Origin: Candidatus Poribacteria bacterium
GTDB lineage: Bacteria; Poribacteria; WGA-4E; WGA-3G
Direction: 5' to 3'
NCBI GenBank assembly: GCA_028821605.1
Contig: JAPPFM010000058.1
Location: 124,280 to 188,279, forward strand
Length of the DNA stretch: 64,000 nt
Position numbers and translations under genes: made by a program. How positions within the stretch are numbered: position 1 is the first letter of the stretch; the number at the start of each line of letters is the position of its first letter. Of the stretch, positions 25,065 through 61,407 are shown piece by piece. The notes beneath the pieces were generated by a model that saw only the letters and a program-made list of their open reading frames with translations, had not been told where the DNA came from and ran no database searches.

Positions 25065-28000
25065 ATGTCCATTGGTTTTCAACACTTTTTAGCCGCTTGC
25101 ATCGGACAAACAGAAGAAGAGACCGATCAACCCGACGATGCACAGCATGATGACGAACCCCAACAAACGGAATTGGAACTCGCAACGGATGATAATCCCG
25201 TAAGTGATGCTGATTCCGTAGATGCCCCAGTTTCCGAACACGTGGAAAGCGAAGAAAAGGATGTTTCGTCTCCACCAGAAGAAGCAACCGTATCGGATGA
25301 TCCTCCCCCTGTCACTACAGACGAGGGTGCCGAAACGCCTAAGGACAGCGATCCATCCCCGATAAGTGACAGTCTCGAAGCAGGCGAAGACAACGTTCCT
25401 GAGGAGGTTACCAACCTTGATGCCGCCGATGGTGAAGAGGCACCTCAATCATTAGAAGGTGCCGATTCGGCTTCTGAGGACGAGGTGGAGATTGTCCCGC
25501 CTGAGACAGAAACCGAGGATGCCGTGGAGGAAAGCCCACAAGTTGCCGACAGCGAAGTTTCAGAAACTGAAACGCAAGAAACAGACGAAACAGCCCCAAG
25601 CGATGATGCTGAAGCGGAACCTGAACCGCCACCGCTGGAGCTTGGGATTATTGAGGAAATTTATGACTTCGTAGAGATGTTTGAACAAGGCACCGTTTCT
25701 GGGACAGAGCAAGCATCTGCCAGCGGTACAGATTCCTCAGGTGGTGTGGTAAAACCTGCCATTTTTGAACATCCAACCCCAACAGAAACCGCGAGAATTG
25801 ACTACACACTCTCACTTCCCGATGCCGATGACAAAGAGAAACTCTTCTTACACTTTTCGATCGGCTTGCGGGATGGTGTCGTATTTGACGATGCAGCGCG
25901 AACACCCGGGGGTGTAAAGTTTGCTATTGAAATTGTTGATCTTCCGAACACAGATTTGGAGGTTTCCACACCAGAAAGATGCTTTGAATCTGTGTCAACC
26001 GAATGTCACTGGACAGAAAAAAGCATAGATCTGACACATTACGCCGGTAAAGAGATCGTCGTCTCGTTTTTGACGGCGTGTAACGTAGAAGGCAACAGCA
26101 ACTACGCGTGGGCGTTGTGGGGTAAACCACAGTTACGCAAACTTAAACAGACATCGCTCCGGAAAGGGAAAAGAGATAAGGAACCGGAAGTTCGATGCGG
26201 TATTGCCCTCTTACACTTCAGCGATGATGCGATGCAGCTGCAGGAGTTCAGCCAATCTACATCAACAGCGGTTTCCATGCTAACGGATATTCTGCTTGAA
26301 TCACACGAATCAGAAAAACCACCTGTCAAGATATCCATTTATGCAGCACAGCCGAAATTGGAGATTGTGAGCGTAGGTGCGACAGCGGCAGTTGTCGCAG
26401 CAGGCGAGGATTTTGAGGTGCAATGCACGCTTCGGAATATCGGCAGTGCGCCACTTGGTAAGGCAGATACGGCGCGGATCTCTATCAACGGTGTGAAACT
26501 ACGCCGCGGACGTCCGAGACACACCGTCAAAGAAATTGAACCAGGTGAAGAAACCTCCATTTTTTGGATAGCCCGTCGTCTTTCAAATCCGACTGTAGTT
26601 CCTCTTTCCGTTTCGCTCAAATGCCAAACGTCAGCCGGAGAAGAACGTCAAACGGTTCAAGGGAGCGTTGCGATTCGTCCCGCGGCACCTAAGTTCGCTA
26701 CTAAAACTGTAAAAGAACTGCACACCTACACCCAAGACGGTAGTGTCGTGATAGGGAATAGACATCTTCGCCTCGTTTTCGTCCGTGGTACTGAAGCGAC
26801 ATCAAAGACCGAGAACGAAGACAGTTTCGACAAAAAGGCCGCTGGTAGCTTTGCGTATTACGTGCTTTTTGTTGCAAAAGGGGGTCATTATCAACAGGTA
26901 GCAACCAGTCCTACCTTCTCTGAGGTAACCTACTTAGACGCATCGCAAAATCGCCAGACTTTGCGACTCGCGCCTACGGTTTATCAACTCTCAGGAAACA
27001 ACATGGGAGAGTCCATCATCCGCTTAAGTGGCTCGAATACAGATGTTGACGGTGTGGAATGGGCTTATGAGATGCAGTGGACGCTTGCTGAACGGGCGAC
27101 ACGGGTGAAAACGGAATATCAATTGCAAACGGACGGAAACAGAGAACTCCTCGCCTTCCAAGGTCCGATGCTTTACGCGGGACAAGGGCGTAACCGTGAG
27201 AAGAAAACGGCGGCACTTTTCCCTGGGCTTGAATTCTTGGAGAACGACGAACGTTCTTCAAGCGCGCGTGATGCAGCACCTCCGCTCGATAACCGGCTTG
27301 TACCGCACCCTTATAAAATTACAGTGCCGGTCATGGCAGTAGAAATGCAGAAATCGTTAGTCGGCATTGTTTGGAATCCTCTGGATACTTGGGATGGTGA
27401 GAATCAGATGCTCTCTACGATATTCGCCTCTCCCAATTGGTATCAGTCCCAAAAAAACCACGTTCTCGGTGTGTTCTTACCGACTATACCTGCGTGGGTC
27501 CAAGAAAATCAGGCAGAGGCTTCCATTCCGTATCCGCTGATGTCATCGCGTCCGTTGTCCATCAAAAGCGAAATCATTGTCGATGGAAACGCCTCCATTT
27601 TAGATGCTGTAGCACATTGGAAGGACGCTTACGGCACGCCTAAATCATTACCACCACCGCGTAGCGACGAAGAAGAGGTTCTGCTTTCACGGCACGGGTT
27701 TATGCACACCACATGGGATGAAGACACACGAAAATCCCGTCACTGTGTAGACTGGGCTGCTCAAAATGAACCGGGTTTTGGCACTTTGCTCTGGTACGAC
27801 TACCTCGCGACAAAGGACGAACAGGTGAAGGAACGAGTGCAAGAAATTGCCAAAAACACTATAGACGAATTCGGTACGGGTGGCTTGGCGGCACGCGGCT
27901 CGTGTCACATTTTGAGATGGGAGTTCCCCTTTTATATCGGCAATGTTGATGCAGCACTAACTTACATGGAGGAGGAAATGCAGCAACGCATTGCCACGCA

Positions 28001-29093
28001 AGAATCTGATGGAAGTTGGCGGTGGCATCCGACGAGCGAACGAACTGCCCCCCTTGGAGAACCGGGCGAAGCCGTGCTCGGCACCTGTGCAGAGTCGGTG
28101 TATTTACTCCTCAAACACGCGCGAATTACCGGAAATAAAACCTCGCGTGAGGCAGGTTTGAAGGCACTTAAATTCATTCAGCAATTCTCCGTACCGCGCG
28201 GCGCACAAATGTGGGAATGCCCGATGTATCAACCGGATGTCCTCGCAGCTGCACATGCTATCGGTGCCTACGTTGAAGCTTATGAACTGACAAGCGAAAA
28301 AGAACATCTCAAGCGCGCAACGTATTGGGCAGAGACAGCACTCCCGTTCCTCTACCATTGGCACCTGTCTGACCGACCCGGTATGCAGTTCGCTTCAATC
28401 CCTGTTTTCGGGACGAGTTTCCATACACACCCTTGGTTCGGTGTCCCTGTTCAATGGAACGGATTAGTTCTCGCCTACCACTTACAACGACTGAACCAGC
28501 ACACCGAGGATGAAAAATGGCATCAGGTTGCTGAAGGTATTACGATAAGTGCGATGCATCAGCAGTGGGACGACGGTGAACTCAAAGGCACCTATCCCGA
28601 TGGATTTTACGGTTTTTGTACCGAAGGTAAGGGACCGCATCTGAACCCCGAAGATATTATGGTGAATGTCTACACACTCCGAGGGCTTGATCCGGGTATA
28701 AAGACCGTTATAACGGGTGAGATACACGTCAGCTCTGGCGCAAGAGTAGAGGAACTCGCTTTAACCAACGGTCAGTTGAACTGGCAGCTCGGTTACGCTG
28801 ACAATGAAACAAGCTATTCACTCATCGTTGGTTGCGGACGCGCGCCACAGGCACTCCGGGCACGATATGAACTCACATCCCCGCCGGATGATGCTCCTAC
28901 CGATACAGATACGTCCGCTGAAGATTCTGAACCTGTCAACGGATCGAATAGATACGCAGAAATTGAGGTTCCCGCTGTGCAGTCATTTGAAGATGTTGAA
29001 TCCGGATGGCTTTATATTGAAGATAAGGACGCTATACTGGTAAAATATCTGCACGCCAATACGGATGTGCAGTTCAAGCTTTTGACACAGTAG
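25065..29093 (+). CDS. Large protein with acidic head, beta domains and alpha-toroid-like C-terminal region
   Basis: 1342 residues, not assigned to a known family. Residues about 15-190 are low-complexity and rich in Asp, Glu, Ser, Thr and Pro. A beta-rich part follows, including a CARDB-like stretch near 430-530 (VQCTLRNIGSAPLG). The C-terminal third (about 880-1230) has helical hairpins with Trp/His-rich motifs (GSWRWHP, CAESVYLLLKHARITG, PMYQPDVLAAAHAIGAYVEAY), suggesting an alpha/alpha toroid like those of polysaccharide lyases or glycosidases. No normal signal peptide is seen; LAAC at residues 9-12 resembles a lipobox, but the leader is too short and uncharged. The start follows an in-frame stop and the repeat copy 2. 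Possible carbohydrate-active enzyme, unproven. Confidence 0.7.
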   Translation: MSIGFQHFLAACIGQTEEETDQPDDAQHDDEPQQTELELATDDNPVSDADSVDAPVSEHVESEEKDVSSPPEEATVSDDPPPVTTDEGAETPKDSDPSPISDSLEAGEDNVPEEVTNLDAADGEEAPQSLEGADSASEDEVEIVPPETETEDAVEESPQVADSEVSETETQETDETAPSDDAEAEPEPPPLELGIIEEIYDFVEMFEQGTVSGTEQASASGTDSSGGVVKPAIFEHPTPTETARIDYTLSLPDADDKEKLFLHFSIGLRDGVVFDDAARTPGGVKFAIEIVDLPNTDLEVSTPERCFESVSTECHWTEKSIDLTHYAGKEIVVSFLTACNVEGNSNYAWALWGKPQLRKLKQTSLRKGKRDKEPEVRCGIALLHFSDDAMQLQEFSQSTSTAVSMLTDILLESHESEKPPVKISIYAAQPKLEIVSVGATAAVVAAGEDFEVQCTLRNIGSAPLGKADTARISINGVKLRRGRPRHTVKEIEPGEETSIFWIARRLSNPTVVPLSVSLKCQTSAGEERQTVQGSVAIRPAAPKFATKTVKELHTYTQDGSVVIGNRHLRLVFVRGTEATSKTENEDSFDKKAAGSFAYYVLFVAKGGHYQQVATSPTFSEVTYLDASQNRQTLRLAPTVYQLSGNNMGESIIRLSGSNTDVDGVEWAYEMQWTLAERATRVKTEYQLQTDGNRELLAFQGPMLYAGQGRNREKKTAALFPGLEFLENDERSSSARDAAPPLDNRLVPHPYKITVPVMAVEMQKSLVGIVWNPLDTWDGENQMLSTIFASPNWYQSQKNHVLGVFLPTIPAWVQENQAEASIPYPLMSSRPLSIKSEIIVDGNASILDAVAHWKDAYGTPKSLPPPRSDEEEVLLSRHGFMHTTWDEDTRKSRHCVDWAAQNEPGFGTLLWYDYLATKDEQVKERVQEIAKNTIDEFGTGGLAARGSCHILRWEFPFYIGNVDAALTYMEEEMQQRIATQESDGSWRWHPTSERTAPLGEPGEAVLGTCAESVYLLLKHARITGNKTSREAGLKALKFIQQFSVPRGAQMWECPMYQPDVLAAAHAIGAYVEAYELTSEKEHLKRATYWAETALPFLYHWHLSDRPGMQFASIPVFGTSFHTHPWFGVPVQWNGLVLAYHLQRLNQHTEDEKWHQVAEGITISAMHQQWDDGELKGTYPDGFYGFCTEGKGPHLNPEDIMVNVYTLRGLDPGIKTVITGEIHVSSGARVEELALTNGQLNWQLGYADNETSYSLIVGCGRAPQALRARYELTSPPDDAPTDTDTSAEDSEPVNGSNRYAEIEVPAVQSFEDVESGWLYIEDKDAILVKYLHANTDVQFKLLTQ

Positions 29094-33537: not shown

Positions 33538-36500
33538 ATGAAAACTTGTGGTAGACGCGAGCAGTACTCGCTACGCTTCAGTGCTCTAATAAATGTATTA
33601 ACCCTTCTCCTTTCTGTTTTGCTTTTCAGTGGGCAACCGTGCGACACCGCATCCGCACAAGCAGTTTCCAGCACCGGTATGAAAACTGCAGCCATTCAGA
33701 TTCGAGATGACCTCTCTATCGGCAACATTCGAAAGGACCTGGCACGCCTCTCAAGCCTTGATAGCCGCGTAACTGGTTATCCGCAAGCTGCGAGTGGTAG
33801 TAAATATATCTTTGACCGGTTTGCTGAGATTGGCTTGCAAAACGTGGAAAGCCGTGAATTCCCTGTGACTGTGCCGATCGACCATGGCGATAGTGTTATT
33901 GAAGTCCTCTCGCCGGAAGCGACTGTGTTGCATACCTTTAAACTTACACCGCTCTGGCCCAATCTCGTACGGACCTCCCTGTTAGCAGATGGCATTAAAC
34001 ATACCGTTTTACGAGACGAAACACTTGAAGATATAGCCTCAAGCTACCAAATTCCTGAAGCAACTATTCTCGCAGACGAGCGGAACAAATTTTTGGCAAC
34101 GCCTGTCGTCGAAGGAAGCACAGTTTTCATCCCAACAGGCGGCTTGTCCGGTCCGCTCCTTTATGGCGATGACGGCGAACTCGCTGACTTCAACGGTACC
34201 AACATCGGTGGATTCTGGTATAGACTTCAAGATGGAGACACTCTCACAGCTCTCGCCCATCGCTATCGTATCACCGAAGCCAGTATTACTGACGACATAC
34301 TCAACGAACACTTGCAAAAGGCATCCGATGGCATTGACAACGATGAGGACGGCACTGTTGACGAATACGGTGAAATACCCCTGCTCTCTGAAATTCTGGG
34401 ATGGGCAACAGACGGTATTGACAACGATGCCGATGGTTGGACAGATGAAATCCCCGGTGACGCTACTGATGGGATTGATAACAACAACGATGGACAAGTC
34501 GATGAAACAGGCGAGTTCGTCGCAGCGAGCGAATCACATGTCTTCATCCCGAAAGGTGCCATAATCCTCCTTGATTTTAATTCCAGTACCCGCTACATCA
34601 ACGCCGCAATGCTCGGTGGCACTGCCGTCATCTTTATCGAACCCGAAACCACCATCCGCGGGGAAGCAGAAAACAAGTTCGGTACCGTTCCCGCCAACAT
34701 ACCGCGATTTTGGATTTCCAAAAAAGATGCCGATGTTCTCACCAACCTGCTTGAAGAACAAAATTCCCAGGGCAATGAGGTTAATGTCCGAGTCAGGGGT
34801 AAGATGACGTGGGAACGCCGTGTTGGACAGAACATACGCGGGTTCTTAGAAGGTGGTGACCCGACGCTACGCGATGAACTCATTGTCCTCACTGCTTATT
34901 ACGACTCCATGTCCGTTGTGCCAGCAATGGCACCCGGTGCGGATCCTACCTGCGGCATCGCAACCCTCATGGAACTCGCGCGCCTCTTTAGTCAACCGCA
35001 ATATCGTCCAGGTTACTCTGTGCTCTTTGTCGCAATTGACGGACATTTTCAAGGGCTTGCCGGGATGCGTGCCTTCATGGAAGGCATCGGACAGGATATC
35101 GTGGGCGCGGCTACGGACTCACCCGGTACCCCGACAATGCACGGACTTCGCCGTGGACTCTCTACAGATATCATCGAGTTTGAAGAATTGGGCAGAAGAC
35201 TTCTACTCTCTATTGACCGGAGTGTACTTGTTGATCTCCCTGCCGATTTCTTCCACGGCATACACAATGTAAAGGCTGATTTGGACTCGCTCGGAATAAC
35301 CCTTGACGGTTTGGCAAAGACACGATCTGAAATCGAATCCCTCACGGCGAAACAACGAGACTTTTCAGAACGCCAGAAGAAACAGACAGATAGAAATCGA
35401 AAACGTGAGAAACAAGGCTTTACCGGTGAAGAAAAGAGTCGGTTGTTGGCAAATCTTGCGCGCTCAAAGAAAGAGTCACTGCAAACAACACACTTTCTCC
35501 GAGACATTGTTCAAAGATTAACCGAGGTCCGCACCTCCGCACTTGACACAAGTCGAGCTGCGCAACGCGAATTGATTGAAGCACTCGCGCTACCGATAGC
35601 CCGTCTTGACACATGGGCAGTCGAAAAACTCATTCATGCAATAGAAACCGGTGCTACCAACGAATATGCTACGCACCCAAATCATGCATATCTTCTCCCG
35701 GTACAACAGGGTTCAGATTGGCAAATCTCAATACCCGAAGATCTCCCGCCAGAATTCGTCCCTGACATTGAGATGCTTAACAAAACGCTTGCAAACTGGG
35801 AGATGAGCGACAAAAGCAAATTTGCCTTGATGTGGACTCCCGAGAAAATACTTGACCGGCATCTTGATCTACACTCACTCAATAAAATTAAAAACGCACG
35901 CAGTGTTTTGCGCAATGCCAACGCCTCCCAAGAAGCCTCAATCCAGCGAGAGATCCAGTTACTTGAAAAGGTTCTCGCGCAAATACCTGATAGCCAACCC
36001 GCTGAAGATGAGATCAAAACAAGCATCCGGAGACTCAAGGAAACACCGATGGGCAAACCGAGCGGTGATTCCTTAATTTATAGCGGTAAGTTTTTGTCGA
36101 AAGCCGGAATCGAACGACTCAATATTATTGACACCCAACTTCGCCAGCGATTATCCGAATCTGAAGACACCGTCGATATTGCTATACTGATAACAGACAT
36201 TCTCAAAGATAAACAAGGTATCTTTGAAATTGCCCTTCGGAACGCCCGGTTAGAACGAACACGCATCCAGTACTTGATCGCAACAGCTGGAACGTTAGGG
36301 CGGGAATACTTGGATGAAGAACGCCTCATCTTGGAAAATTACCTCTCAGATGACGAAGTCGAACAGGCACTTTCGCTACGCTCTCGCATCGCATCACATA
36401 TTAGCGAAACAGAGTTGTTGGCGACCGTCAAAAAGCGCGCGGACACAGATATTGTCGCACTCGAAAATCTCTTTGAACGGTTACCCACATTAGATACCGA

Positions 36501-39500
36501 TTTGGATGAAGAGACGAAGACACTCCTACGCGATAATCTGCTAACGCTACGAAACGCACGTTTCCGAAACATTCAGAGCCGCGTTGAAAAAATGTTGCGC
36601 ATTGACACTAACGAATACAATCGGAAACTCGGACAGATTGAGGCAGCTATTGCTCTCCAAGACCTGTTTAATCGCTACTACACCTCCCTCTATGTCAGCA
36701 TTGACCTCTCCTCACAGTCGAATCAGTTCGGGGTGTTCAATAAGGGATGGTTCTACGATCAACAGCCCGAATTTGTGCTGCGTCGTGAGTTCGCGAGTAT
36801 CGGTAATAAACTTGCTGCTTACGCTGAAGATGCCGATTTCGGTGTCCGTGTCCGAAAACTTTGGCAGTGGACAGACGACCAAATCCGACAAGCCGTCATG
36901 ACACGTCAATGGACGGTTGCAAATGGGATATCTGACAAAGCCGCCCTTGAAGGAAAAACGCTTGAAACGCTGCTGAGTTCGCACTTCAGCAAACTCACCG
37001 GTCTCAGCGGTGTGAGCCGACTGATGAAGATGCAGTTTGAGCAGTGGCGCAACCAAGGCGAACCCTCCGAGGATATGCTCAAAGATATGGATTATATCCG
37101 CAAAGAGGTAGAGCGTTTCATCCGAAACGATGTGCGCACAGCAAAGAAAAATCGGAAGAACAATATCCGTACGCGTGAGCAGCTGGATGCAATGCTCCGA
37201 CTTCGGTATGAAGATCCAGATACCTTCTCCGAGGACGAAATTGAGGACATTAGAACCCTCATTTCAATCGCGGGTCTCGGTGGCGAGTCGAACTTTGTTA
37301 ACGCCATCTCCGCAAGTGGTGGAAAGACTTGGAAAACCTATATCCCGGGTAAGATCGCCTTTGACAGCGAGGTAGCAACACTTGTTGGAAAAACTGGCAT
37401 CGCTTTTGCGACTATTGAAGATGCCCGTGTTTTAACGGATACCCCACTCGATACAATTGAACGCGTCGATTTGCAGGAAGGTGGCAATCTCCATCAACAA
37501 GCACAGACATTGGCATCACTACTCATTCAAGCACTCCGTGATGAAGAGATGCCCACCGCAGCACGCGTCGGGAATTTCTACTGTAACCTCTTCGGCGATG
37601 TCGTTGAATTCGATGCACGCGAGTCCGCACTCCCGAACAAACCGGTGCCTTATCCTATTTTGACACTCCGCAGAAAGCATAAATCCATGATGGGTGTGCG
37701 TGGCGATCTGTTTGTAATGGGCGACAACAAAGGAAACTTTGAGGTTGCCGGATTAGCCATGGAAGGCAGAGCGACACGTCGCCTCGGTGGTGCCCAAGAG
37801 GTCGAAGCATACATCCTTGATCCGGATTCCGGGGACATCGTCTATGCCCCGGACTTGGGGAATTACGGTGCGAAACTGCTGCCGAATAAAGTTCCAATCA
37901 ATACCCGCAGACGTGGGTGTCGTGTCGTTGCGTTCCCTTGCGTCTCTACGACTATCTATGATTTGGTGGACCAACGGTATCTACGGACATTGCGAGAGCT
38001 TGAAGTCTACGACGCACTCACCGATAGTGCGCCGGAGAAGTTCGGAATGTCCAAACCGTGGCAGCAAGAAGGGGTCTCCGCAGCTGAACCGATCGCCCTC
38101 GTTTATAGCGAACCGAACACCCGTATTAAAGTCGGGATGGCTTACGGACAGATCGGCAAACGTCTTCTACTCATTAAAGCAACGAAGAGCGGTATGAAGA
38201 ACCCGACACTTTACACCGGTGAAGGGTTCGTCGTCCGTGAAAACGGAAGGATCCGTCTTACACCCTATGTTGTTGTTCGTGATATGTGGTGGCTTGATGA
38301 GAACCGATCGCGACTCTATAAACGGTTCGGTATCTCCAGCGATCGACTCGATAAACTCCATCAATTCGCGAATGAATACCTCGCACGTGCGGAGACCGAA
38401 TTGCTTCAAAACGATTATCAACAGGCACTCAAACTCGCACGTGCCGCGTGGGGTTACGAATCACGCGCATACCCCGATGTCAAACAGACGGGTAACGATG
38501 TCGTTAACGGCGTAATGTTCTATCTCGCTTTGCTGATGCCATTTGCCTACTTTATGGAGCGGCTTATCTTCGGTTTTCCGAATATCCACAAGCAGATTAT
38601 CGGATCGTTCGGCATCTTTCTACTTGTGTTTTTCTTCTTAAGCCAAGTTCACCCTGCATTTCAGATTACGACGACTCCTGTGATTATCTTGATTGCGTTC
38701 GTTGTCCTTGCCTTAACAGTCATCGTTATCAGTATTATTGTGCGGAAATTTGAGGAACAACTCGAAAAAATTCGCCAAGAGGGGAACAAAGTCTATAAAG
38801 CCGATGTCGGTAGGTTGAGTGCAAGTGCAGCAGCGTTTAGTTTGGGAATTTCCAACATGCGGAAACGGAAAGGACGTACAATCCTGACATGCTGCACGTT
38901 GGTAATCCTTACTTTTACTGTGATCTCGTTTACCTCTGTGCGGACGTTTATGCATCCGAATCGAACGAGTCTACCGCAGGTGACACCACGCTATACGGGA
39001 CTTCTTATCCGTGACCAATACTGGCGTCCACTTGAGGAACCGGTGCTTACCTCCGTGCTAAACGACATGCAGAAGACGCAGATCACACTTACAGCATTAG
39101 AGCGACTTCTGGCGCGTAAGAATGAACTGTTAGTCAAGCAGGGGCAACAGCCTATTGATATTGCGGAAGCACGCACGGCTTTAGAGCAAGGGGGTTTCAT
39201 TGAACGGGTAGACGAAGAATCTGTTGTGACGGTTCGGAACGTCGTCGCTCCACGTGCGTGGTATCAGTCCTCAGGAACAGGCGATCAATCATTCGTCCAA
39301 CTCACACGCACGTCAAATCCGGCAGATCCATCACCACCGACGCATCAACTTACGGGTGAAGCGTTGACGTTCGCGGCAAACATGCTCGTGGGTATGAACG
39401 AAGCAGAACCGGGTGTTAGCGGTATTGACAGATATCTCCAATACGGAAAATGGTTTAACCCAGTAGATGCCAATGAATGGCCAACGGAGTGGCCCTATGC

Positions 39501-40866
39501 TATTGTACTTCCCAAAGGGATGGCAGAATTGCTTAAAATCACCGAAAGCGATATGGGGAAAGCCACTGTCTCTGTTTACGGTGCTGACTTCACCGTCGTT
39601 GGTGTCCTCGGCATCGGCTTCAAGGACCTCACCGATAACGATGGTGAGGAACTCACACCTGTTGACTATCAATTGATGCAACAGCAGCGAAGCCGCGGTG
39701 CCACTGGTGATGAAACACTTGAAGGTGAATTACAGAAATATCTCCATCTCACGCCAGATAGTATTGCCATCCTCCCTTATGAGGTCGTTATGAACCAAGG
39801 CGGAACGCTCCGAAGTGTCGCCGTTAACATGGAACCGAGAGATGACGACCCGAAATTGCTTGGCGCGATAGATAAATTGGACCTTATCATGGCACCGCTC
39901 ATGAACCGCATCGCACTTGATTTCTTTGTCGGGCGTGATAAAGACACATACCTCTACAGTAGTATCGGGATGACAAGTTTCAGTGGGATGGGCAATCTAT
40001 TTGTCCCAATCTTGATCGCCGCGCTTATTGTGCTCAACACTATGCTTGGAGCAGTCTATGAACGGGTTCGTGAAATTGGTATTTACAGTTCCGTTGGACT
40101 CGCGCCTGTGCATATCGCCTTCCTCTTCCTCGCAGAGGCATGCGTATACGCGATTGTCGGCGCGGTATTAGGCTATCTCATGGGGCAAGCGATAGCAACG
40201 ACCCTCGTGCATTTCGGCTGGCTTGCCGGATTGACACTCAATTACTCGTCAATGTCAACTGTTGTTGCAACGATTATCGTCATGGCTGTGGTGTTGCTGA
40301 GTACCATGTACCCAGCAATTAAAGCCTCACGGATGGCTGTTCCTGATATTGAACGTAAATGGAAACTTCCCGAACCCGAGGGCGACGTATGGCACTTCAA
40401 CCTGCCCTTCACCGTCCTTGAAGAGGAAGCACTCGGACTGAATGTCTTTATGCGGGATTATTTCGAGGCGCACGCAGATGAATCCGCCAGTGACTTCTAT
40501 ACGGATCAGGTTGCGTTTAGTCAAGTGGAAGACGAGGATTCCTACCAAATCGGGATGATGGTCTGGTTGGCACCTTACGACTTGGGTGTGAGCCAGTCTA
40601 TCCAATTCGTCACATCCCCAGCGGGTGGTGAAGAGGAAGACCTCTACAAAATCACGTTGGATGTGCATCGCGAGAGCGGCGAGATCGCCTCTTGGAAGCG
40701 AGTGAATCGACGGTTCCTCAACTTGCTACGGAAACAACTCCTGATTTGGCGGACGTTCAGTGTCGATGTTCGATCAGAGTTCCATGAACGCGGCAGAGCC
40801 GAAGGTACAGATGGATCGGCGGAAGAAGCACCACAGATGGAACCAGCACCGACCCCAGCGGATTAA
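33538..40866 (+). CDS. Giant degenerate-M28 peptidase / FtsX-type permease fusion
   Basis: 2442 residues from ATG 33538, which gives a normal signal peptide (MKTCGRR then a hydrophobic stretch to ASAQA). An ATG at 33502 lies inside a hairpin and is less likely. Residues about 55-515 follow the M28 peptidase fold, interrupted by two LysM-like segments (about 154-198, 225-245) and three calcium-binding DGIDNxxDGxxDE repeats (264-276, 292-304, 311-323). The usual metal ligands are altered: AYYDS, GADPTCG and DGHFQGL stand where HxD, GADDN and GEEQGL are expected, so it is probably not a peptidase. About 560-1380 is helical and charged. Membrane spans lie near 1655-1740 and 1783-1800, with an FtsX domain at about 2155-2270 and an acidic tail. 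It may need the ATPase at 45035. Confidence 0.85.
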   Translation: MKTCGRREQYSLRFSALINVLTLLLSVLLFSGQPCDTASAQAVSSTGMKTAAIQIRDDLSIGNIRKDLARLSSLDSRVTGYPQAASGSKYIFDRFAEIGLQNVESREFPVTVPIDHGDSVIEVLSPEATVLHTFKLTPLWPNLVRTSLLADGIKHTVLRDETLEDIASSYQIPEATILADERNKFLATPVVEGSTVFIPTGGLSGPLLYGDDGELADFNGTNIGGFWYRLQDGDTLTALAHRYRITEASITDDILNEHLQKASDGIDNDEDGTVDEYGEIPLLSEILGWATDGIDNDADGWTDEIPGDATDGIDNNNDGQVDETGEFVAASESHVFIPKGAIILLDFNSSTRYINAAMLGGTAVIFIEPETTIRGEAENKFGTVPANIPRFWISKKDADVLTNLLEEQNSQGNEVNVRVRGKMTWERRVGQNIRGFLEGGDPTLRDELIVLTAYYDSMSVVPAMAPGADPTCGIATLMELARLFSQPQYRPGYSVLFVAIDGHFQGLAGMRAFMEGIGQDIVGAATDSPGTPTMHGLRRGLSTDIIEFEELGRRLLLSIDRSVLVDLPADFFHGIHNVKADLDSLGITLDGLAKTRSEIESLTAKQRDFSERQKKQTDRNRKREKQGFTGEEKSRLLANLARSKKESLQTTHFLRDIVQRLTEVRTSALDTSRAAQRELIEALALPIARLDTWAVEKLIHAIETGATNEYATHPNHAYLLPVQQGSDWQISIPEDLPPEFVPDIEMLNKTLANWEMSDKSKFALMWTPEKILDRHLDLHSLNKIKNARSVLRNANASQEASIQREIQLLEKVLAQIPDSQPAEDEIKTSIRRLKETPMGKPSGDSLIYSGKFLSKAGIERLNIIDTQLRQRLSESEDTVDIAILITDILKDKQGIFEIALRNARLERTRIQYLIATAGTLGREYLDEERLILENYLSDDEVEQALSLRSRIASHISETELLATVKKRADTDIVALENLFERLPTLDTDLDEETKTLLRDNLLTLRNARFRNIQSRVEKMLRIDTNEYNRKLGQIEAAIALQDLFNRYYTSLYVSIDLSSQSNQFGVFNKGWFYDQQPEFVLRREFASIGNKLAAYAEDADFGVRVRKLWQWTDDQIRQAVMTRQWTVANGISDKAALEGKTLETLLSSHFSKLTGLSGVSRLMKMQFEQWRNQGEPSEDMLKDMDYIRKEVERFIRNDVRTAKKNRKNNIRTREQLDAMLRLRYEDPDTFSEDEIEDIRTLISIAGLGGESNFVNAISASGGKTWKTYIPGKIAFDSEVATLVGKTGIAFATIEDARVLTDTPLDTIERVDLQEGGNLHQQAQTLASLLIQALRDEEMPTAARVGNFYCNLFGDVVEFDARESALPNKPVPYPILTLRRKHKSMMGVRGDLFVMGDNKGNFEVAGLAMEGRATRRLGGAQEVEAYILDPDSGDIVYAPDLGNYGAKLLPNKVPINTRRRGCRVVAFPCVSTTIYDLVDQRYLRTLRELEVYDALTDSAPEKFGMSKPWQQEGVSAAEPIALVYSEPNTRIKVGMAYGQIGKRLLLIKATKSGMKNPTLYTGEGFVVRENGRIRLTPYVVVRDMWWLDENRSRLYKRFGISSDRLDKLHQFANEYLARAETELLQNDYQQALKLARAAWGYESRAYPDVKQTGNDVVNGVMFYLALLMPFAYFMERLIFGFPNIHKQIIGSFGIFLLVFFFLSQVHPAFQITTTPVIILIAFVVLALTVIVISIIVRKFEEQLEKIRQEGNKVYKADVGRLSASAAAFSLGISNMRKRKGRTILTCCTLVILTFTVISFTSVRTFMHPNRTSLPQVTPRYTGLLIRDQYWRPLEEPVLTSVLNDMQKTQITLTALERLLARKNELLVKQGQQPIDIAEARTALEQGGFIERVDEESVVTVRNVVAPRAWYQSSGTGDQSFVQLTRTSNPADPSPPTHQLTGEALTFAANMLVGMNEAEPGVSGIDRYLQYGKWFNPVDANEWPTEWPYAIVLPKGMAELLKITESDMGKATVSVYGADFTVVGVLGIGFKDLTDNDGEELTPVDYQLMQQQRSRGATGDETLEGELQKYLHLTPDSIAILPYEVVMNQGGTLRSVAVNMEPRDDDPKLLGAIDKLDLIMAPLMNRIALDFFVGRDKDTYLYSSIGMTSFSGMGNLFVPILIAALIVLNTMLGAVYERVREIGIYSSVGLAPVHIAFLFLAEACVYAIVGAVLGYLMGQAIATTLVHFGWLAGLTLNYSSMSTVVATIIVMAVVLLSTMYPAIKASRMAVPDIERKWKLPEPEGDVWHFNLPFTVLEEEALGLNVFMRDYFEAHADESASDFYTDQVAFSQVEDEDSYQIGMMVWLAPYDLGVSQSIQFVTSPAGGEEEDLYKITLDVHRESGEIASWKRVNRRFLNLLRKQLLIWRTFSVDVRSEFHERGRAEGTDGSAEEAPQMEPAPTPAD

Positions 40867-40956: not shown

Positions 40957-41145
40957 GTGGAGAAAATAGCAAGCCTTATCATCATCATTGGCACTCTCTT
41001 ATGGCTGTTTAGTATTCTCGTCCTCGAAGGGCGTTGGCAATGGCAGATGTTCTCAGCCCTTGTGTTGGCAGTTGGCATCTTCTCGGCGCATTTCTGGGAA
41101 GAATTGCGAGACACGGACAACGACACAGACAACACAGACAGCTAA
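40957..41145 (+). CDS. Small membrane protein, GTG start
   Basis: 62 residues from GTG 40957 with AAGGA 9 bp upstream. Two hydrophobic segments (about 4-22 and 30-48) separated by LEGRWQWQ, then an acidic tail EELRDTDNDTDNTDS. Family not recognised. Position directly after the giant permease suggests an accessory subunit or simply a membrane chaperone-like role; no direct evidence. Confidence 0.55.
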   Translation: MEKIASLIIIIGTLLWLFSILVLEGRWQWQMFSALVLAVGIFSAHFWEELRDTDNDTDNTDS

Positions 41146-41264: not shown

Positions 41265-43253
41265 TTGGCAAGAGAACGAGTAACACAAGCAGATGAATGG
41301 CAAGCTTGGGCACAGCGGTACGACATGGAAGGCGGTATCCGTACCTTTGAGTCGGGGTTAACGGTTAAGGTGTTCGTCGGAGCACTTTTCGTTGGCTTGC
41401 TGATGATGCCGGGTTCCATCTATCTGAGTTATGTATCCGGCCAGTCCGGTGCTGGCGCAGCCCCCTGGGTTGCCGTTATTCTATTCACCGAGCTCGCGCG
41501 GCGGTCTTTCACGACTGCCCGGCGACAGGAACTTTATATGCTGCTCGGGTTAACAGGCGCGGCAGTCGGAAGTGGGCTGCAATACCGGAATTTTATCTGG
41601 TATGCCTATTTCATCAATACCCCGCAGGCAGCTTCCTACGAAATCGCAGACAAAATACCGGATTGGATTGTACCCGCAGGTGATTCCGTCGGCGTGCTCA
41701 CTCGAAGTCTGCTGCACCCCGACTGGCTCCTACCCATCGGTATCTATCTTGCAGGAAAACTTCTTGGCACGTTGCGATCTGTCAGTGCACAGTATATTTT
41801 GTTCCGCCTCACGGCGGACCTTGAACGACTTCCGTATCCGATGGCACCGATTAGTGCCCAAGGCGCAACTGCACTCGCAGAAACAACAGGAAAAGAAGAA
41901 ACTTGGCGGTGGCGGGTCTTCTCCATCGGCTCTATGGCAGGACTCATCTGGGGGTTCCTCTATATTGGTGTGCCTGCGCTCACAGGCGTCATGATGAGCC
42001 AACCCATCCAGATTCTGAAGATTCCGTGGATAGATTTCACACAGAGTATCGAAGGTTTCGCACCAACAGGCGTTTTTGCCCTTCACACCGATTTTCAACA
42101 GATGGTCTTTGGGTTCGTGCTACCGTTCCCGGTTGTGATGACAGAATTTATTGCTGCAATGGCAACGCAATTTGTCTTGAATCCACAGATTCTGTACCGA
42201 AACGAGATTCTCCACCAGTGGCAACCCGGTTTGGATGTCCGTGGTGTCGGCTTGTTCAATGGACTGGATTTCTGGATTAGCTGCAATATGGGGAAATCCT
42301 TCAGTTTCGCGATCGTTGGACTGGCAGCTTCTGTTCCGATGCTCTTTAAAATGCGGAAATCCAAGAAAACTGCAGGCGAACGCGGCACCTTTGCTCCGCC
42401 GCCGAACCGTGGCGACTTCCCGATATGGTTGATGGGATTACTATGGCTCGCCGGTATGGGTGGGTTTGTCTGGCTCATCCACTGGATGGTCCCGAATTTC
42501 CCGTTGAGTTTCCTATTAGGTTTCGCATTCCTGTATACACCGCTCAACTCGTATATCACCGCACGGACCTTCGGGGTGTTGGGACGCGACCTTTTTGAAA
42601 TACCGTATCTACACGAAATTACCTTCATTTTGAGCCGCTATGAAGAGGTAGATATCTGGTTCGCACCATTACCGGACGAAGACTATGGACGTGGTACGCA
42701 GAGTTGGCGAGTACTTGAATTGACAGGAACGACCTTCACTTCAAACCTCGCTGGCACACTACTGATTATGCCGATTTTGCTCATCAGTGGAATTGTGGTG
42801 CTTCACTTTATTTGGAAGATTGCACCTATTCCCAGTGCCCAGTATCCGTTTGTACAGATGATGTGGCCCATTAACGCCACAAATGAATGTCTCATGAAAA
42901 CGTCGCTGCGGGACGGAAATAGCCAAATGCTCCAAGCACTTCGGGGTGACTACGTCGCTGCGGGATTTACTGGAAGTATCGCAATCTACGGGATGTTGTG
43001 GGTCTTCAGACTGCCCTCAATGTGGTTCTATGGCATCATCGGTGGCATCGGGGCGGATCCAGGAAGTATGATTGCCAGACTCCTCGGCGCGATCATTGGA
43101 CGGTTTTATATGATTAAGCGATTCGGCATGAAACGCTGGTACATGTTTAACCCAGTACTCGCAGCGGGGTTTACGTGTGGTGTCGGTCTCATCGGCATGG
43201 GGACTGTGGCTATTGCCCTTGTCTCCAAAGCGGTTATTGTCAAACCGTTTTAA
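41265..43253 (+). CDS. OPT-like polytopic membrane transporter, TTG start
   Basis: 662 residues. Start is TTG 41265 with AAGGAG about 10 bp upstream; no in-frame ATG precedes it. Around 14 hydrophobic segments. The N-terminal SGLTVKVFVGALFVGLLMMP, PGSIYLSYVSGQSGAGAAPW and TELARRSF resemble bacterial OPT-type oligopeptide or metal-chelate transporters and the DUF6785 group. Uptake or export of a small peptide or related compound is possible. It lies in the cluster of the giant FtsX-like protein and LolD-type ATPase, but OPT proteins are secondary transporters and do not need that ATPase. Confidence 0.75.
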   Translation: MARERVTQADEWQAWAQRYDMEGGIRTFESGLTVKVFVGALFVGLLMMPGSIYLSYVSGQSGAGAAPWVAVILFTELARRSFTTARRQELYMLLGLTGAAVGSGLQYRNFIWYAYFINTPQAASYEIADKIPDWIVPAGDSVGVLTRSLLHPDWLLPIGIYLAGKLLGTLRSVSAQYILFRLTADLERLPYPMAPISAQGATALAETTGKEETWRWRVFSIGSMAGLIWGFLYIGVPALTGVMMSQPIQILKIPWIDFTQSIEGFAPTGVFALHTDFQQMVFGFVLPFPVVMTEFIAAMATQFVLNPQILYRNEILHQWQPGLDVRGVGLFNGLDFWISCNMGKSFSFAIVGLAASVPMLFKMRKSKKTAGERGTFAPPPNRGDFPIWLMGLLWLAGMGGFVWLIHWMVPNFPLSFLLGFAFLYTPLNSYITARTFGVLGRDLFEIPYLHEITFILSRYEEVDIWFAPLPDEDYGRGTQSWRVLELTGTTFTSNLAGTLLIMPILLISGIVVLHFIWKIAPIPSAQYPFVQMMWPINATNECLMKTSLRDGNSQMLQALRGDYVAAGFTGSIAIYGMLWVFRLPSMWFYGIIGGIGADPGSMIARLLGAIIGRFYMIKRFGMKRWYMFNPVLAAGFTCGVGLIGMGTVAIALVSKAVIVKPF

Positions 43254-43419: not shown

Positions 43420-44454
43420 ATGGACTGGACTAATTTTGGTTGGGCAGGCATAGAACTGGAAATACCCACAACATGGGAACTCAGCGGACTTAGCGGAGAT
43501 CAGAAAGCAGGGTATCTCCGACTTGACGACGCAGAGATGCCTCGTCTTGAACTCAAATGGGCGCATACTCGACGCAAAAAGCCAGATCTTCATGCGATGC
43601 TTGACGAATATTTCAAGTTGATTCGCAAGACCTACAAGAAAGGTGGCGAACTCTCTTTCCGTCGGAACGTTAATCTCATTAAAGAAGAAGAATTCTTTAA
43701 GGGACGCACCGTTCTCGGCTTTAGCTGGAAAGGGAGTATACGTGCCAACGGGTTGATTTTTCACACCGGAAAACGAATCACGATTGTGCAGGTGATGGGG
43801 AGACTCAAAGAGAACTGGCGACCCACGGTCCTTCGGATTTTCCAATCAATTGTAGACCGTAGCGAGGAATCACTGACGCTATGGAGTGCCTATGGACTCA
43901 AGCTGGGTGTTCCGAAAGAATACAAACTGGAACGTCAGAAATTACTCAGTGGCTATTTGTTGTTTGCCTTTGTTGCAAAGCCGGTTCGCTTTCAAAGTGT
44001 GGTAAAGCTTGCTAAACTCGCAAGCAGCCGACTGCGGAACAACGGTTCTGTAGAAGATTTAGACACGCCTCCACCCGACATAGGTCGTCTCAGTGTTGAA
44101 CGGTATGGACCAGCAGAGGTGATGCTGAATGACTATAAAGACACACCGAATCCGCTGGAGGCATGGTTTCGCGCCAAATACGCAAAAGCAATTCGTGGCT
44201 ACGGATTTGAAGTAAAGTCCGAGACAAATTCGGAGGATGAACAGCTGACACTTACTGGAGAACAGACACGACTCTACGACGGTATACCGTTCAGTCCGGT
44301 GCTGATGCTCGACAAACTATCCAAGCGGACAGCACTTGTGTTTCATCTCTGGCGATGCAACCACTCCAATCGTATTTACGTCATTCAGTCTATCGGTAGC
44401 ATCAATGCGTCCCCGACTGTCCAGAAGGTTGCTGAAAGTATTGTGTGTCATTAA
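43420..44454 (+). CDS. Two-domain protein of unknown function in the giant-permease cluster
   Basis: 344 residues, no signal peptide and no membrane span. The chain looks like two copies of one fold: the first half begins WAGIELEIPTTWELSG with GYLRLDDAEMPRLELKW, the second begins YGLKLGVPKEYKLERQ with GYLLFAFVAKPVRFQSV. The EIPxxW start recalls PsbP/DcrB-like or stress-related small beta domains, but I cannot name a family. No ribosome site is visible; the repeat R3 ends just before the ATG. It is followed by the PqqD-like gene 63 bp later, and the conserved order with ATPase and permease suggests a shared system. Confidence 0.65.
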   Translation: MDWTNFGWAGIELEIPTTWELSGLSGDQKAGYLRLDDAEMPRLELKWAHTRRKKPDLHAMLDEYFKLIRKTYKKGGELSFRRNVNLIKEEEFFKGRTVLGFSWKGSIRANGLIFHTGKRITIVQVMGRLKENWRPTVLRIFQSIVDRSEESLTLWSAYGLKLGVPKEYKLERQKLLSGYLLFAFVAKPVRFQSVVKLAKLASSRLRNNGSVEDLDTPPPDIGRLSVERYGPAEVMLNDYKDTPNPLEAWFRAKYAKAIRGYGFEVKSETNSEDEQLTLTGEQTRLYDGIPFSPVLMLDKLSKRTALVFHLWRCNHSNRIYVIQSIGSINASPTVQKVAESIVCH

Positions 44455-44517: not shown

Positions 44518-44991
44518 ATGCTGAACAGAATTTTATACGCCCTCAAAATTAAGAAGCGTCCCGATGTGGACCGGAGTCAGGTGATGAAGTCGTTTCCCGT
44601 GCGGAACCAACTCATAACCTGGGAGGTAGACGATAAAGGCGAAGCCTCACTCGTCATTCCACAGAAAGATAAACTCTGGACTCGACTCGCCGGTAAACTC
44701 TTTATGCTCCCCGATAAAAGGGTTATCGTATTGGATTCTATCGGAACTTATGTGTGGCAGATGTGCGATGGTAAGCATACCATTTCGCAGATTATAAAGG
44801 GAGTCCAAAACCAATACCAATTGACTCGTAAAGAGGCAGAAACGTCGCTCTTTACGTTCATGCAACAACTCGGCAAACGGAACTTCATAGGGTTCGCTAT
44901 TCCTAATCCTCAACAGAATACACCAGCAACGCCAGAGTCGGAACCCGAACCCGCAAAGCCGGGATTTTTTGGGTCCCTATTGAGACGGTAA
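44518..44991 (+). CDS. PqqD-like protein
   Basis: 157 residues. The middle (about 75-135) has the PqqD pattern: VIVLDSIGTYVWQMCDGKHT, then ISQIIKGVQNQYQLTRKEAE and FMQQLGKRNFIGF, with helices of a winged-helix-like fold. PqqD family members bind and present precursor peptides to radical SAM or other maturation enzymes (RiPP recognition element). No radical SAM enzyme or clear precursor peptide is visible nearby. The C-terminal tail is Pro/Glu-rich and ends FFGSLLRR. It is 43 bp before the ATPase gene. Confidence 0.78.
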   Translation: MLNRILYALKIKKRPDVDRSQVMKSFPVRNQLITWEVDDKGEASLVIPQKDKLWTRLAGKLFMLPDKRVIVLDSIGTYVWQMCDGKHTISQIIKGVQNQYQLTRKEAETSLFTFMQQLGKRNFIGFAIPNPQQNTPATPESEPEPAKPGFFGSLLRR

Positions 44992-45034: not shown

Positions 45035-45847
45035 ATGAATACACAAACAGAGATAGGTGATGTTGGCGCAACTTTTGCCGAAACACCAGAACGCTTTGAG
45101 CGCCTTATTCCGAAAGAAAACACAGTCCGCGTCCGAAACCTCATTAAGCGGTACGAGATGGGTACACAGACTGTAGATGCCCTCCGCGGTGTTAATTTTC
45201 AAATCCAGCGCGGTGAGTACATCTCAATCATGGGTCCCTCTGGTTCCGGGAAGTCAACGCTCTTCAACATGATTGGCGGCTTAGATAAACCGACCGAAGG
45301 CAGAGTTTACATTGACGAAGTGGACATCGCACAACTTGATGCGTACGAACTCGCGTGGCTCCGCTGTCGAAAGATCGGTTATATCTTCCAGTCATTCAAC
45401 CTCATCCCTGTTATGACAGCACTTGAAAACGTCTCACTTCCGATGATCTTTGCGGGTATGAGTGCTGATGAGAGCCGGGAGAAAGGTGTGGATCTCCTCA
45501 AACTCGTTGGATTGGGGGACCGCGTGCAACACAAACCGTTAGAACTCTCCGGTGGACAGCAGCAGCGTGTCGCAATCGCACGTTCGCTCGCGAACGACCC
45601 AGCGATTGTCCTCGCCGATGAACCAACCGGAAACCTTGATACCAAAACCGGGTTAGAGATCATAGCACTGCTCCGTCGCCTTAACGATGAAAACGGTGTG
45701 ACCATTATCACAGCAACACACGACCATAAGATGTTAGATGTCTCCGACCGTATTTTCCACATGGCAGATGGCAAAGTAGACAAAATCGAGACACGCGAGG
45801 AGATTGATCTCCATGTCGGTAAATTAGACGGTGAAGAGGTCGGGTAA
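45035..45847 (+). CDS. LolD/MacB-type ABC transporter ATP-binding protein
   Basis: 270 residues. Walker A GPSGSGKST (about 67-75), Q-loop YIFQSFNLIPVMTALENV, signature LSGGQQQR, Walker B IVLADEPTGNLDT and switch His in ATHD. This is the MacB/LolD/FtsE class that powers FtsX-type permeases by mechanotransmission. An N-terminal extension of about 30 residues precedes the ABC domain. AGGAG lies 7 bp before the ATG. Its likely partner is the FtsX-like giant protein at 33538; another possible partner is the MacB-like permease at 54950. Confidence 0.92.
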   Translation: MNTQTEIGDVGATFAETPERFERLIPKENTVRVRNLIKRYEMGTQTVDALRGVNFQIQRGEYISIMGPSGSGKSTLFNMIGGLDKPTEGRVYIDEVDIAQLDAYELAWLRCRKIGYIFQSFNLIPVMTALENVSLPMIFAGMSADESREKGVDLLKLVGLGDRVQHKPLELSGGQQQRVAIARSLANDPAIVLADEPTGNLDTKTGLEIIALLRRLNDENGVTIITATHDHKMLDVSDRIFHMADGKVDKIETREEIDLHVGKLDGEEVG

Positions 45848-54949: not shown

Positions 54950-56185
54950 CTATTCGTGACGCAGTGCCTCTGTTGGGGTGAGACCTGCAGCCTTGTTTGC
55001 TGGGTAGAGTCCAAAGAATATGCCGATCAATCCTGAAACGCTAAACGCGATCAACGCGGCTTGGACGGAGACAACGGCGGGCCAACTCGCCTTCATGAGT
55101 TTTGAAATAACTAAACCCGAAATAGAAGCGAGGCTACTTCCGATGAGAATACCGATAAGCCCACCACAAATGCTTAAAACGATGGCTTCAATGAGAAATT
55201 GAATTAGAATGTCACGGCGTTTCGCGCCAAGGGCTTTGCGCAAGCCAATTTCACGAGTTCTCTCTGTCACGGAGACTAACATGATATTCATAATACCGAT
55301 ACCACCGACAAACAGAGCAACGCTCGCAACACCGCCCAAGAGTATCTGAACGATTCGACTGACATTGCCTACCTGTTTTATAATCTCTTTCGCCGTGAAA
55401 AATTCAAAATATTTTTCATCGCCGTGTTGCTGACGCATAGCAACCTTGATTTCAGCGACGGCTTGTTCGACTTTTTCATAACTCTCGGCTTGCGCCCACA
55501 GATAGATCCAGCCTTTCCATTGCCCAATAAAACGGATCCCCATTGTGGTGAGTGGAATAATTACCCGATTATCCCACCCTTCGGATGCCATACTATTGCC
55601 CTTTTCCTCCATGACCCCAATGACGGTGAACCGTTCCGTGTTGATTTTGAGTTCAAGCCCAATCGGATCATCCATTTTAAATAGATCTTTTCGGACTTCA
55701 GACCCGATGACACAGATCGGTTCTCTCCGTTCCATGTCGCTCTGGGTAATAAATCTACCCGCTTGAATGTACCAGTTATTAACCTCTTCATAGAAGGGTG
55801 TAACGCCGAGAACTTGAAGCGACTGATTAACGTTTTTGCGCGACACAGTAAAACTCATCTCTGACAGTGCTACCGCTGATTTCAGAGAAGGACAGTTTTC
55901 AAGGAGAAAATCAAGGTCTTCGTATTCAATATACTCCGGATGCTTATTCTCAACATACGAGCCATCTTCCCTACGAAACGCCTCTTTCCTAAAGCAGACA
56001 ATCATACCTGCACCGCCGATACGCTCCAATTCAGCAAGCATAAGATGTTCCGCACCGCCGCCGACTGAAACAACAGCCACGACTGCTGCGATGCCGATGA
56101 TAATCCCAAGCGTTGTTAGCACGGAGCGCAACTTGTTACGTTTCAGCGCTGTCAAGCCAACAGAGACCCCTTGCGTAATCTGCAT
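54950..56185 (-). CDS. MacB-like FtsX-type permease
   Basis: 411 residues. One N-terminal span (RNKLRSVLTTLGIIIGIAAV), a periplasmic MacB-PCD domain (about 45-270) and a C-terminal FtsX domain with three spans (GGVASVALFVGGIGIMNIML, TERTREIGLRKALGAKRRDI). Such permeases use a LolD/MacB ATPase and often an adaptor to move substrates across the envelope. No ATPase lies next to it; the LolD-type ATPase at 45035 is a candidate. The ribosome site is weak. Confidence 0.9.
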   Translation of the reverse strand: MQITQGVSVGLTALKRNKLRSVLTTLGIIIGIAAVVAVVSVGGGAEHLMLAELERIGGAGMIVCFRKEAFRREDGSYVENKHPEYIEYEDLDFLLENCPSLKSAVALSEMSFTVSRKNVNQSLQVLGVTPFYEEVNNWYIQAGRFITQSDMERREPICVIGSEVRKDLFKMDDPIGLELKINTERFTVIGVMEEKGNSMASEGWDNRVIIPLTTMGIRFIGQWKGWIYLWAQAESYEKVEQAVAEIKVAMRQQHGDEKYFEFFTAKEIIKQVGNVSRIVQILLGGVASVALFVGGIGIMNIMLVSVTERTREIGLRKALGAKRRDILIQFLIEAIVLSICGGLIGILIGSSLASISGLVISKLMKASWPAVVSVQAALIAFSVSGLIGIFFGLYPANKAAGLTPTEALRHE

Positions 56186-58604: not shown

Positions 58605-58632
58605 AAACTTCTCCTTTTGCGTATACACCAAA

Positions 58633-58701
58633 AAACGCCCCAACGCCGACTGCTAATCGGCGTTGATTCGCGGTTAGCTAAACCGGCAGATTGGGGCGTT
58701 T
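58633..58701 (-). terminator. Three-way-junction terminator after the cohesin gene
   Basis: Outer 11-bp stem (AAACGCCCCAA with TTGGGGCGTTT) enclosing two inner hairpins: AACGCCGA/TCGGCGTT and CGGTT/AACCG. On the minus strand the outer stem is followed by TTTTTT, so it should end transcription 70-140 bp after the gene at 58772. It then separates this gene from the dockerin gene. Confidence 0.6.
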
Positions 58702-58771
58702 ACTTTTGAAGTGTTAGTTTTGGCTCGCGAGCTTCGCCAAAACACACTTTATAGCACTTTCGCTGTTATAC

Positions 58772-61237: not shown

Positions 61238-61407
61238 AAGACACTCCTTATAATTCATTGATATTGTGACGTTTTCTCTACCTTTCGGTACAGATGTAGA
61301 TTCTCGTTTGAGAACGGACGTACCGCAAAATATAGGATCGCCTTGATACCTGTGTGCTTCCGTCAGACGCGCAAAAGCGGTTCGTTTAAACGAGGTTCTT
61401 AAAAGTA

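Follow-up and report, generated by a model that had tools for sequence, protein, structure and literature searches.

What is accomplished by a single protein in which a peptidase-like fold is joined to a permease of the MacB/FtsX type? This question is raised by one reading frame in the window, the whole stretch of 64,000 nucleotides of Candidatus Poribacteria DNA that has been analysed. Positions 33538-40866 of the plus strand, on which all features lie unless the minus strand is named, constitute one uninterrupted frame of 2442 amino acids (MKTCGRR...), and translation from the first ATG at 33502 would give 2454 amino acids. The start at 33538 is the likelier one, because in close relatives the upstream ATG is missing and the ATG at 33538 retained. 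A chance reading frame or a mis-assembly has been ruled out by the same uninterrupted frame in around 80 genomes. In the best reading, this giant provides the large subunit in a subfamily of type VII (mechanotransmission) ABC systems that has gone undescribed and occurs in Poribacteria, Armatimonadota and Desantisbacteria. Six to seven genes make up this ATP-driven envelope machine, so far unstudied and common to the three phyla, and the giant is one of its parts. No published description was found in the literature on Poribacteria FtsX permeases, Armatimonadetes PqqD and ABC transporters and Armatimonadota FtsX proteins and peptidases.

Domain layout of the giant protein

Within the frame, a dead M28/PA ectodomain is combined with two LysM domains, three acidic loops, a helical part, three extra transmembrane (TM) helices and a MacB/FtsX permease. 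Above curated Pfam cut-offs, FtsX (residues 2156-2266, 47.5 bits), M28 (residues 432-515, 32 bits) and LysM (twice, 26.4 bits with a gathering threshold of 20.9 bits) are recognized, with MacB_PCD and PA (15.4 bits) found below cut-off. The protein begins with a hydrophobic signal segment (residues 12-30, 33571-33627) followed by an AxA-type cleavage site around residue 41, as read from hydropathy and sequence. Profile alignment to the aminopeptidases 2ek8 and YwaD places the first part of the M28 fold at residues ~45-135 (33670-33942). Into this fold a PA-type domain is inserted (residues ~140-405, 33955-34752), assigned from the sub-cut-off Pfam hit, alignments and structural matches to PA-containing M28 proteins. 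The PA-type domain holds the first LysM (PF01476, residues 155-199, 34000-34134) and a second LysM stretch (residues ~226-340, 34213-34557) that is interrupted by three metal-type loops of the exact pattern DGIDNxxDGxxDE (residues 264-276, 292-304 and 311-323, 34327-34506). Judged from sequence and alignment, the acidic loops are nested within LysM 2 and LysM 2 within the PA domain. LysM-like and calcium repeats had been part of the original prediction, which is refined by this nesting.

The M28 core with its altered active site (Y454, D456, D469, H503, F504; 34795-35103; Pfam M28 and counts in 113 relatives) is followed by a first helical insertion (residues ~523-1043, 35104-36666), which is missing from six relatives (L132-L137) and modelled as long helices of high pLDDT. 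The fold resumes at residues ~1044-1345 (36667-37572), where structural and profile alignments together with residue counts place D1056, a second helical insertion and D1301. In comparison with an Armatimonadetes relative (L133), the PA domain of the Poribacteria giant is ~164 residues longer owing to the two LysM, the second with its acidic loops, and according to the alignments there are ~504 extra residues between His503 and Asp1056 and ~144 more ahead of Trp1265. A stretch of some 800 helical residues had been anticipated; a long helical part is indeed present, but it consists of these two insertions inside the M28 fold. A separate helical domain behind M28 has been ruled out, as the M28 strands resume beyond the helical insertion. 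The LysM domains with the acidic loops and the helical part are both absent from the core proteins of ~1500 amino acids in Armatimonadota and Desantisbacteria. In two Armatimonadota relatives (L134, L165), hydrophobic TM-like segments occupy the M28 insertion site in place of the helical part, so that this site varies by lineage.

Beyond the M28 fold a highly conserved, beta-rich ectodomain region was delineated from conservation and the model (residues 1340-1600, 37555-38337), without a relevant match among PDB sequences or Pfam. Three extra TM helices (residues ~1655-1734, 38500-38739; hydropathy and model) precede the type VII ABC permease unit at 38878-40308, in which one TM helix (residues 1781-1799) is followed by a MacB/LolC-like periplasmic domain and three TM helices (residues 2155-2257). 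By the order of signal segment, three TM helices and the 1+3 TM helices of FtsX seen in the hydropathy plot, the head and the MacB-like domain lie outside and the C-terminal domain inside. This conserved cytoplasmic C-terminal domain (residues ~2278-2420, 40369-40797), with a mean column identity of 68% across three phyla, has no relevant match among PDB sequences. Structural matches of its model to Bet v1/START-like, that is helix-grip, folds reach Z ~9, close to the background level of such comparisons, and are suggestive only.

The class of the permease is defined by several lines of evidence. The FtsX domain (PF02687) scores 47.5 bits with a cut-off of 25.5 bits. In a second model covering residues 1243-2440 (pLDDT 64.5, of moderate confidence), model residues 514-1032 match HrtB (Z 16.2), MacB (13.4), LolC (13.1) and FtsX (12.7), and the extracytoplasmic domain between TM1 and TM2 matches the periplasmic domains of MacB, LolE and YknZ (Z 9-12), with which the hydropathy layout agrees. 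Furthermore, MacB_PCD exceeds its cut-off in three relatives (L132, L136, L137). On the other hand, the giant stays far below the equivalog cut-offs for LolCE (17.3 vs 362 bits), FtsX (13.7 vs 255 bits) and MacB (28.5 vs 966 bits), its ATPase being encoded by a separate gene. A role as the sole LolCE replacement has been ruled out by better LolCE-like permeases in the same genome (237 bits). An ordinary MacB/FtsX permease is also encoded in the window at 54953-56185 (minus strand), flanked by two GFO/IDH/MocA oxidoreductase genes.

The M28 fold and its rewired pocket

That the head possesses an M28 fold is agreed upon by Pfam, profile search and structure prediction. In an AlphaFold2 model of residues 150-1345 (pLDDT 76.9), the M28 structural alignments span model residues 52 to 1188-1196, and the best matches are nicalin (9c7u, Z 17.5) and the active M28 peptidase 3iib (Z 17.5), equal scores that do not set nicalin apart, followed by YwaD (16.8), the Aeromonas aminopeptidase (14.6), the transferrin receptor (14.6) and nicastrin (14.3). 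Independently, the profile search finds 2ek8 (E 1.5e-23) and nicalin (E 1.3e-8).

Transferred to the numbering of the Aeromonas enzyme by profile alignment, His97 corresponds to Tyr454, Asp99 to Asp456, Asp117 to Asp469, Glu151 to His503, Glu152 to Phe504, Asp179 to Asp1056 and His256 to Asp1301. The motif 'DGHFQGL' had already been singled out as a changed ligand motif, and the profile alignment now places Glu151 at its His and Glu152 at its Phe; a reading of the EE pair as G/A-H was given up in favour of this H-F. The general base Glu151 is His in 113/113 relatives, in which the metal ligand set is likewise not found, Glu152 is Phe in 107/113 and Glu in none, His97 is Tyr in 104 of 113 and His256 is Asp in 116/117, with Asp179 and Asp99 each retained as Asp in all 113. 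Of the di-metal ligands His97, Asp117, Glu152, Asp179 and His256, three (His97, Glu152 and His256) are replaced in the giant and in nearly all relatives. Relatives with intact peptidase ligands, or a predicted fold other than M28, had been named in advance as observations that would overturn the original prediction; intact M28 ligands were sought in 113 giants from three phyla and found in none, and the predicted fold is M28.

Since metal ligands and general base are both replaced, the giant is not classified as an M28 peptidase, and catalysis by the standard mechanism appears very unlikely from the sequence. The argument for lost catalysis rests on the loss of the ligands, because the Aeromonas aminopeptidase with the lone E151H mutation is called 'functional' in the PDB title of 2anp. 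Because the same replacements have become fixed in all three phyla, a role in ligand binding has arguably been retained, with a pocket that would have been rewired rather than be decaying.

Gene set and distribution

The giant is present in 82 of the 85 Poribacteria genomes, usually as a single full-length frame of ~2350-2560 amino acids; identities amount to ~88-96% in the genus and, at the level of the class, mostly to 52-64%. Relatives outside Poribacteria, mostly of 1500-1800 amino acids, are ~40% identical; a whole-genome search located the giant in 181 of 251 Armatimonadota-type genomes, often with two to four matches per genome that represent pieces or copies, and in both Desantisbacteria genomes. 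When 84,980 species were scanned for a motif, 131 related loci were retrieved, and the 80 matches listed derive from Poribacteria, Armatimonadetes, Zipacnadia and Desantisbacteria; this single scan, with 80 of the 131 relatives listed, sets a bound on the spread beyond three phyla. In two loci (L039 and L041, genomes G036 and G039), a second, stand-alone giant paralogue of ~2560 amino acids occurs without the remaining gene set.

In the window, the giant is followed by a mini-protein of 62 amino acids with two TM helices (40957-41145), which starts with GTG, lies below the length cut-off of the list of reading frames and is found at the same place in ~70 Poribacteria loci with 41-88% identity. 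The next gene (41265-43253) codes for a multi-span membrane protein of 662 amino acids that belongs to no Pfam family (OPT, 13 vs gathering 25.8 bits), has no match among PDB sequences and is distantly similar to DUF6785/OPT-like proteins by profile comparison (hhalign probability 70%, E 3.9e-5). Thereafter follow a soluble protein of 344 amino acids without signal peptide (43420-44454), for which neither Pfam nor PDB sequences yielded a match and which looks PsbP/DcrB-like by eye only, and a PqqD-domain protein of 157 amino acids (44518-44991; Pfam PqqD 44.9 vs 23.4 bits), which stays below every equivalog cut-off of the PQQ, RiPP and lasso types. Exactly one PqqD domain is present per genome in the seven genomes tested, including the source genome. 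The last gene (45035-45847) encodes a LolD/MacB-type ATPase of 270 amino acids with Walker A, LSGGQ signature and Walker B (ADEP) motifs, at 237.7 bits in TIGR02211, below the cut-off of 307.75. With an FtsX domain, the structural matches and an ATPase in a gene set that recurs across phyla, the assignment to the mechanotransmission type in the original prediction is supported.

The gene order giant, [62-aa mini-protein], OPT-like, 344-aa, PqqD, ATPase in Poribacteria becomes giant, OPT-like, 344-aa, PqqD, sFtsX, ATPase in many Armatimonadota, and in a Desantisbacteria locus (L132) the same six genes form one cluster in which the giant and the OPT-like gene come last. The additional component sFtsX is a loop-less FtsX half-permease (~220-250 aa; 229 aa) with only a short TM1-TM2 loop and a near-invariant core, MSLxVxxVGIxNSMLMxVTERFxEIGTMKCLGALD, and an FtsX-only frame of this size is present in 12/12 genomes checked. 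In the Poribacteria loci read, sFtsX is unlinked to the giant and adjoins a second ATPase, here 59% identical to the first. In the source genome, sFtsX and this second LolD-like ATPase are located outside the window on contig 18 (L195, 7469-8926, minus strand), and they are probably the missing half of the machine. Among the loci read, two consecutive OPT-like genes occur in three Poribacteria (L043, L044, L045), and DUF6785/DUF6784 membrane proteins are encoded directly upstream of the giant in Desantisbacteria (L132, 4568-6589) and in one Armatimonadetes (L137, 677-2707).

Both PqqD and the OPT-like protein show almost perfect co-occurrence with the giant. Among the 251 Armatimonadota genomes, giant and PqqD are found together in 177, the giant alone in 4, PqqD alone in 9 and neither in 61 (Fisher 2e-43); equally, giant and OPT-like protein are found together in 175, the giant alone in 6, the OPT-like protein alone in 4 and neither in 66 (Fisher 3e-48), both values ignoring shared ancestry. 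In some Armatimonadota (L180-L183) the giant lies apart from the other genes of the set, and because the partners also accompany these unlinked giants, a functional connection is favoured over hitch-hiking.

Other genes of the window deserve mention. On the minus strand, 12416-14461 codes for 682 amino acids in which an ECF-type sigma factor is followed up by a C-type lectin domain and a carboxypeptidase-regulatory-like region as fusion partners; it is odd to find a transcription factor paired with domains that are usually extracellular. Also on the minus strand, 57504-61258 contains a dockerin and Reeler gene next to a cohesin and spondin-like gene with a Por_Secre_tail/CHU_C-like C-terminus, possibly a cohesin-dockerin pair, and a reading frame of 1342 amino acids at 25065-29093 has no Pfam match at E 0.001.

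Mechanism, alternatives and meaning

MacB-like ABC proteins are regarded, as a rule, as mechanotransmission machines, in which ATP hydrolysis drives work beyond the membrane and not carriage of the substrate across it (PMC5985334). The reading that we consider fairly probable is an asymmetric mechanotransmission ABC machine with a dead M28 head that binds a peptide-type ligand. The giant would pair with sFtsX above a dimer of LolD-like ATPases, although Poribacteria, with two ATPases, could form two separate transporters. Closure of the ATPases on ATP would be transmitted through the FtsX helices and the MacB-like periplasmic domain to the M28/PA head; this cycle we infer from the family, and the direction of transport is likewise one that we infer. 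The head, probably a grabbing device welded onto a MacB/FtsX-type permease, would not cut but grip a ligand in its rewired pocket and free it or pass it on with every cycle. In Poribacteria, the head may be tethered to the wall by its LysM domains and acidic loops and may reach further into the periplasm by means of the helical insertion. At the membrane and on its cytoplasmic face, the machine would have three obligate partners: the OPT-like protein, the 344-aa protein and the PqqD protein, whose fold binds peptides.

The M28, PqqD and OPT families deal with peptides in known cases. As members of these families usually bind peptides, although the OPT membership here is below the Pfam cut-off, a peptide or peptide-bearing molecule such as a lipopeptide, a lipoprotein or a muropeptide would be the leading guess for the ligand, a tentative one by analogy that is rather more apt to fail than to hold. 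An extended form, to which we give little credence, sees a core machine of the three phyla that would handle one peptide class from both sides of the membrane: PqqD would recognize the peptide in the cytoplasm, the OPT-like carrier move it and the dead head, gripping the peptide end outside, pull or release it, with a motor made of one giant-headed and one head-less half.

The main rival to a peptide ligand is the handling of lipids or lipoproteins as by LolCDE or YbbAP-TesA, in which a hydrophobic load would be lifted from the inner membrane, sensed or bound by the helix-grip domain and offered to an envelope acceptor by the M28 head. LolC and LolD are indeed among the closest permease and ATPase matches, the C-terminal domain has a Bet v1/START-like look (Z ~9), the distribution is near-universal and core-like, and YbbAP-TesA provides the precedent of a type VII permease with a partner of hydrolase fold (PMC12646458); but the curated LolCE and LolD cut-offs are not reached, permeases that score better as LolCE-like (237 bits) exist elsewhere in the genome, the resemblance to START folds lies close to background and PqqD is left unexplained, so that we regard this reading as possible but doubtful. 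Next in weight comes control of wall enzymes in the manner of FtsEX, where ATP-driven motion of the head would toggle such enzymes and LysM bind the machine to peptidoglycan. As FtsEX is described in the abstract of PMC11627006 as signalling and not transporting, and as LysM lies above cut-off and the structural matches include FtsX (Z 12.7), this has some appeal; its improbability follows from the absence of LysM in all relatives outside Poribacteria, an FtsX equivalog score of 13.7 vs 255 bits, a conserved set without wall hydrolase and an OPT-like transporter that is given no role. The same distribution bears on the original prediction of a wall-binding head, which does not hold as the defining trait: LysM and calcium loops are an elaboration of Poribacteria absent from the core family. 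Least of all do we expect an active metallopeptidase with an altered metal site, in which H503, D1056, D1301 and D/E469 would still hold metal and the His partly replace Glu151. These residues are almost invariant, and the E151H mutant is 'functional' by the title of 2anp, yet E152 is Phe and H97 Tyr in nearly all relatives and the standard ligand set is present in no relative checked.

Compared with known systems, the giant and its gene set share the four-TM FtsX unit, the MacB-like extracytoplasmic domain and a LolD/MacB-type ATPase in the gene set with MacB, LolCE, HrtB and FtsX. They differ from them in an M28/PA-containing ectodomain of ~1600 residues and three TM helices in front, a cytoplasmic domain behind and a second, loop-less FtsX partner, and by scores below all equivalog cut-offs. 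YbbAP-TesA of E. coli is an established case of a type VII transporter with a hydrolase at its side and likewise combines a type VII permease with an extracytoplasmic hydrolase-type protein (PMC12646458), which in that case is a separate and active esterase, whereas the fold here is unrelated M28, fused and dead. Given this precedent, the original idea of a novel kind of envelope machine goes further than the present evidence, which fits a variant within the type VII ABC systems. The loop-less second permease, the PqqD and OPT-like partners and the occurrence in three phyla are additions to the original prediction. Nicalin in the BOS complex and nicastrin equally carry a TM-anchored M28/PA ectodomain as a subunit of a larger complex, but are eukaryotic, with a single TM helix and without an ABC permease. 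The bacterial M28 aminopeptidases (YwaD and those of Aneurinibacillus and Aeromonas) share the fold and the motif positions with the giant, and YwaD and the Aneurinibacillus enzyme the PA insertion, but are free enzymes in which the residues replaced here, metal ligands and general base, are in place. With the PqqD/RiPP recognition proteins the PqqD domain is shared, here encoded with a permease set.

Type VII ABC systems such as MacAB-TolC, LolCDE, FtsEX and YbbAP-TesA run central processes of the envelope, each being defined by the cargo of its extracytoplasmic part. To these is added a whole subfamily, which nearly all Poribacteria and many Armatimonadota possess and in which a dead M28/PA fold has been recruited as the holding part, alongside a head-less partner and three proteins of unassigned role. 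The conversion of a pseudoenzyme into a receptor driven by a motor becomes tractable here, and for phyla of which few members have been cultured, the system probably accounts for much of the envelope biology.
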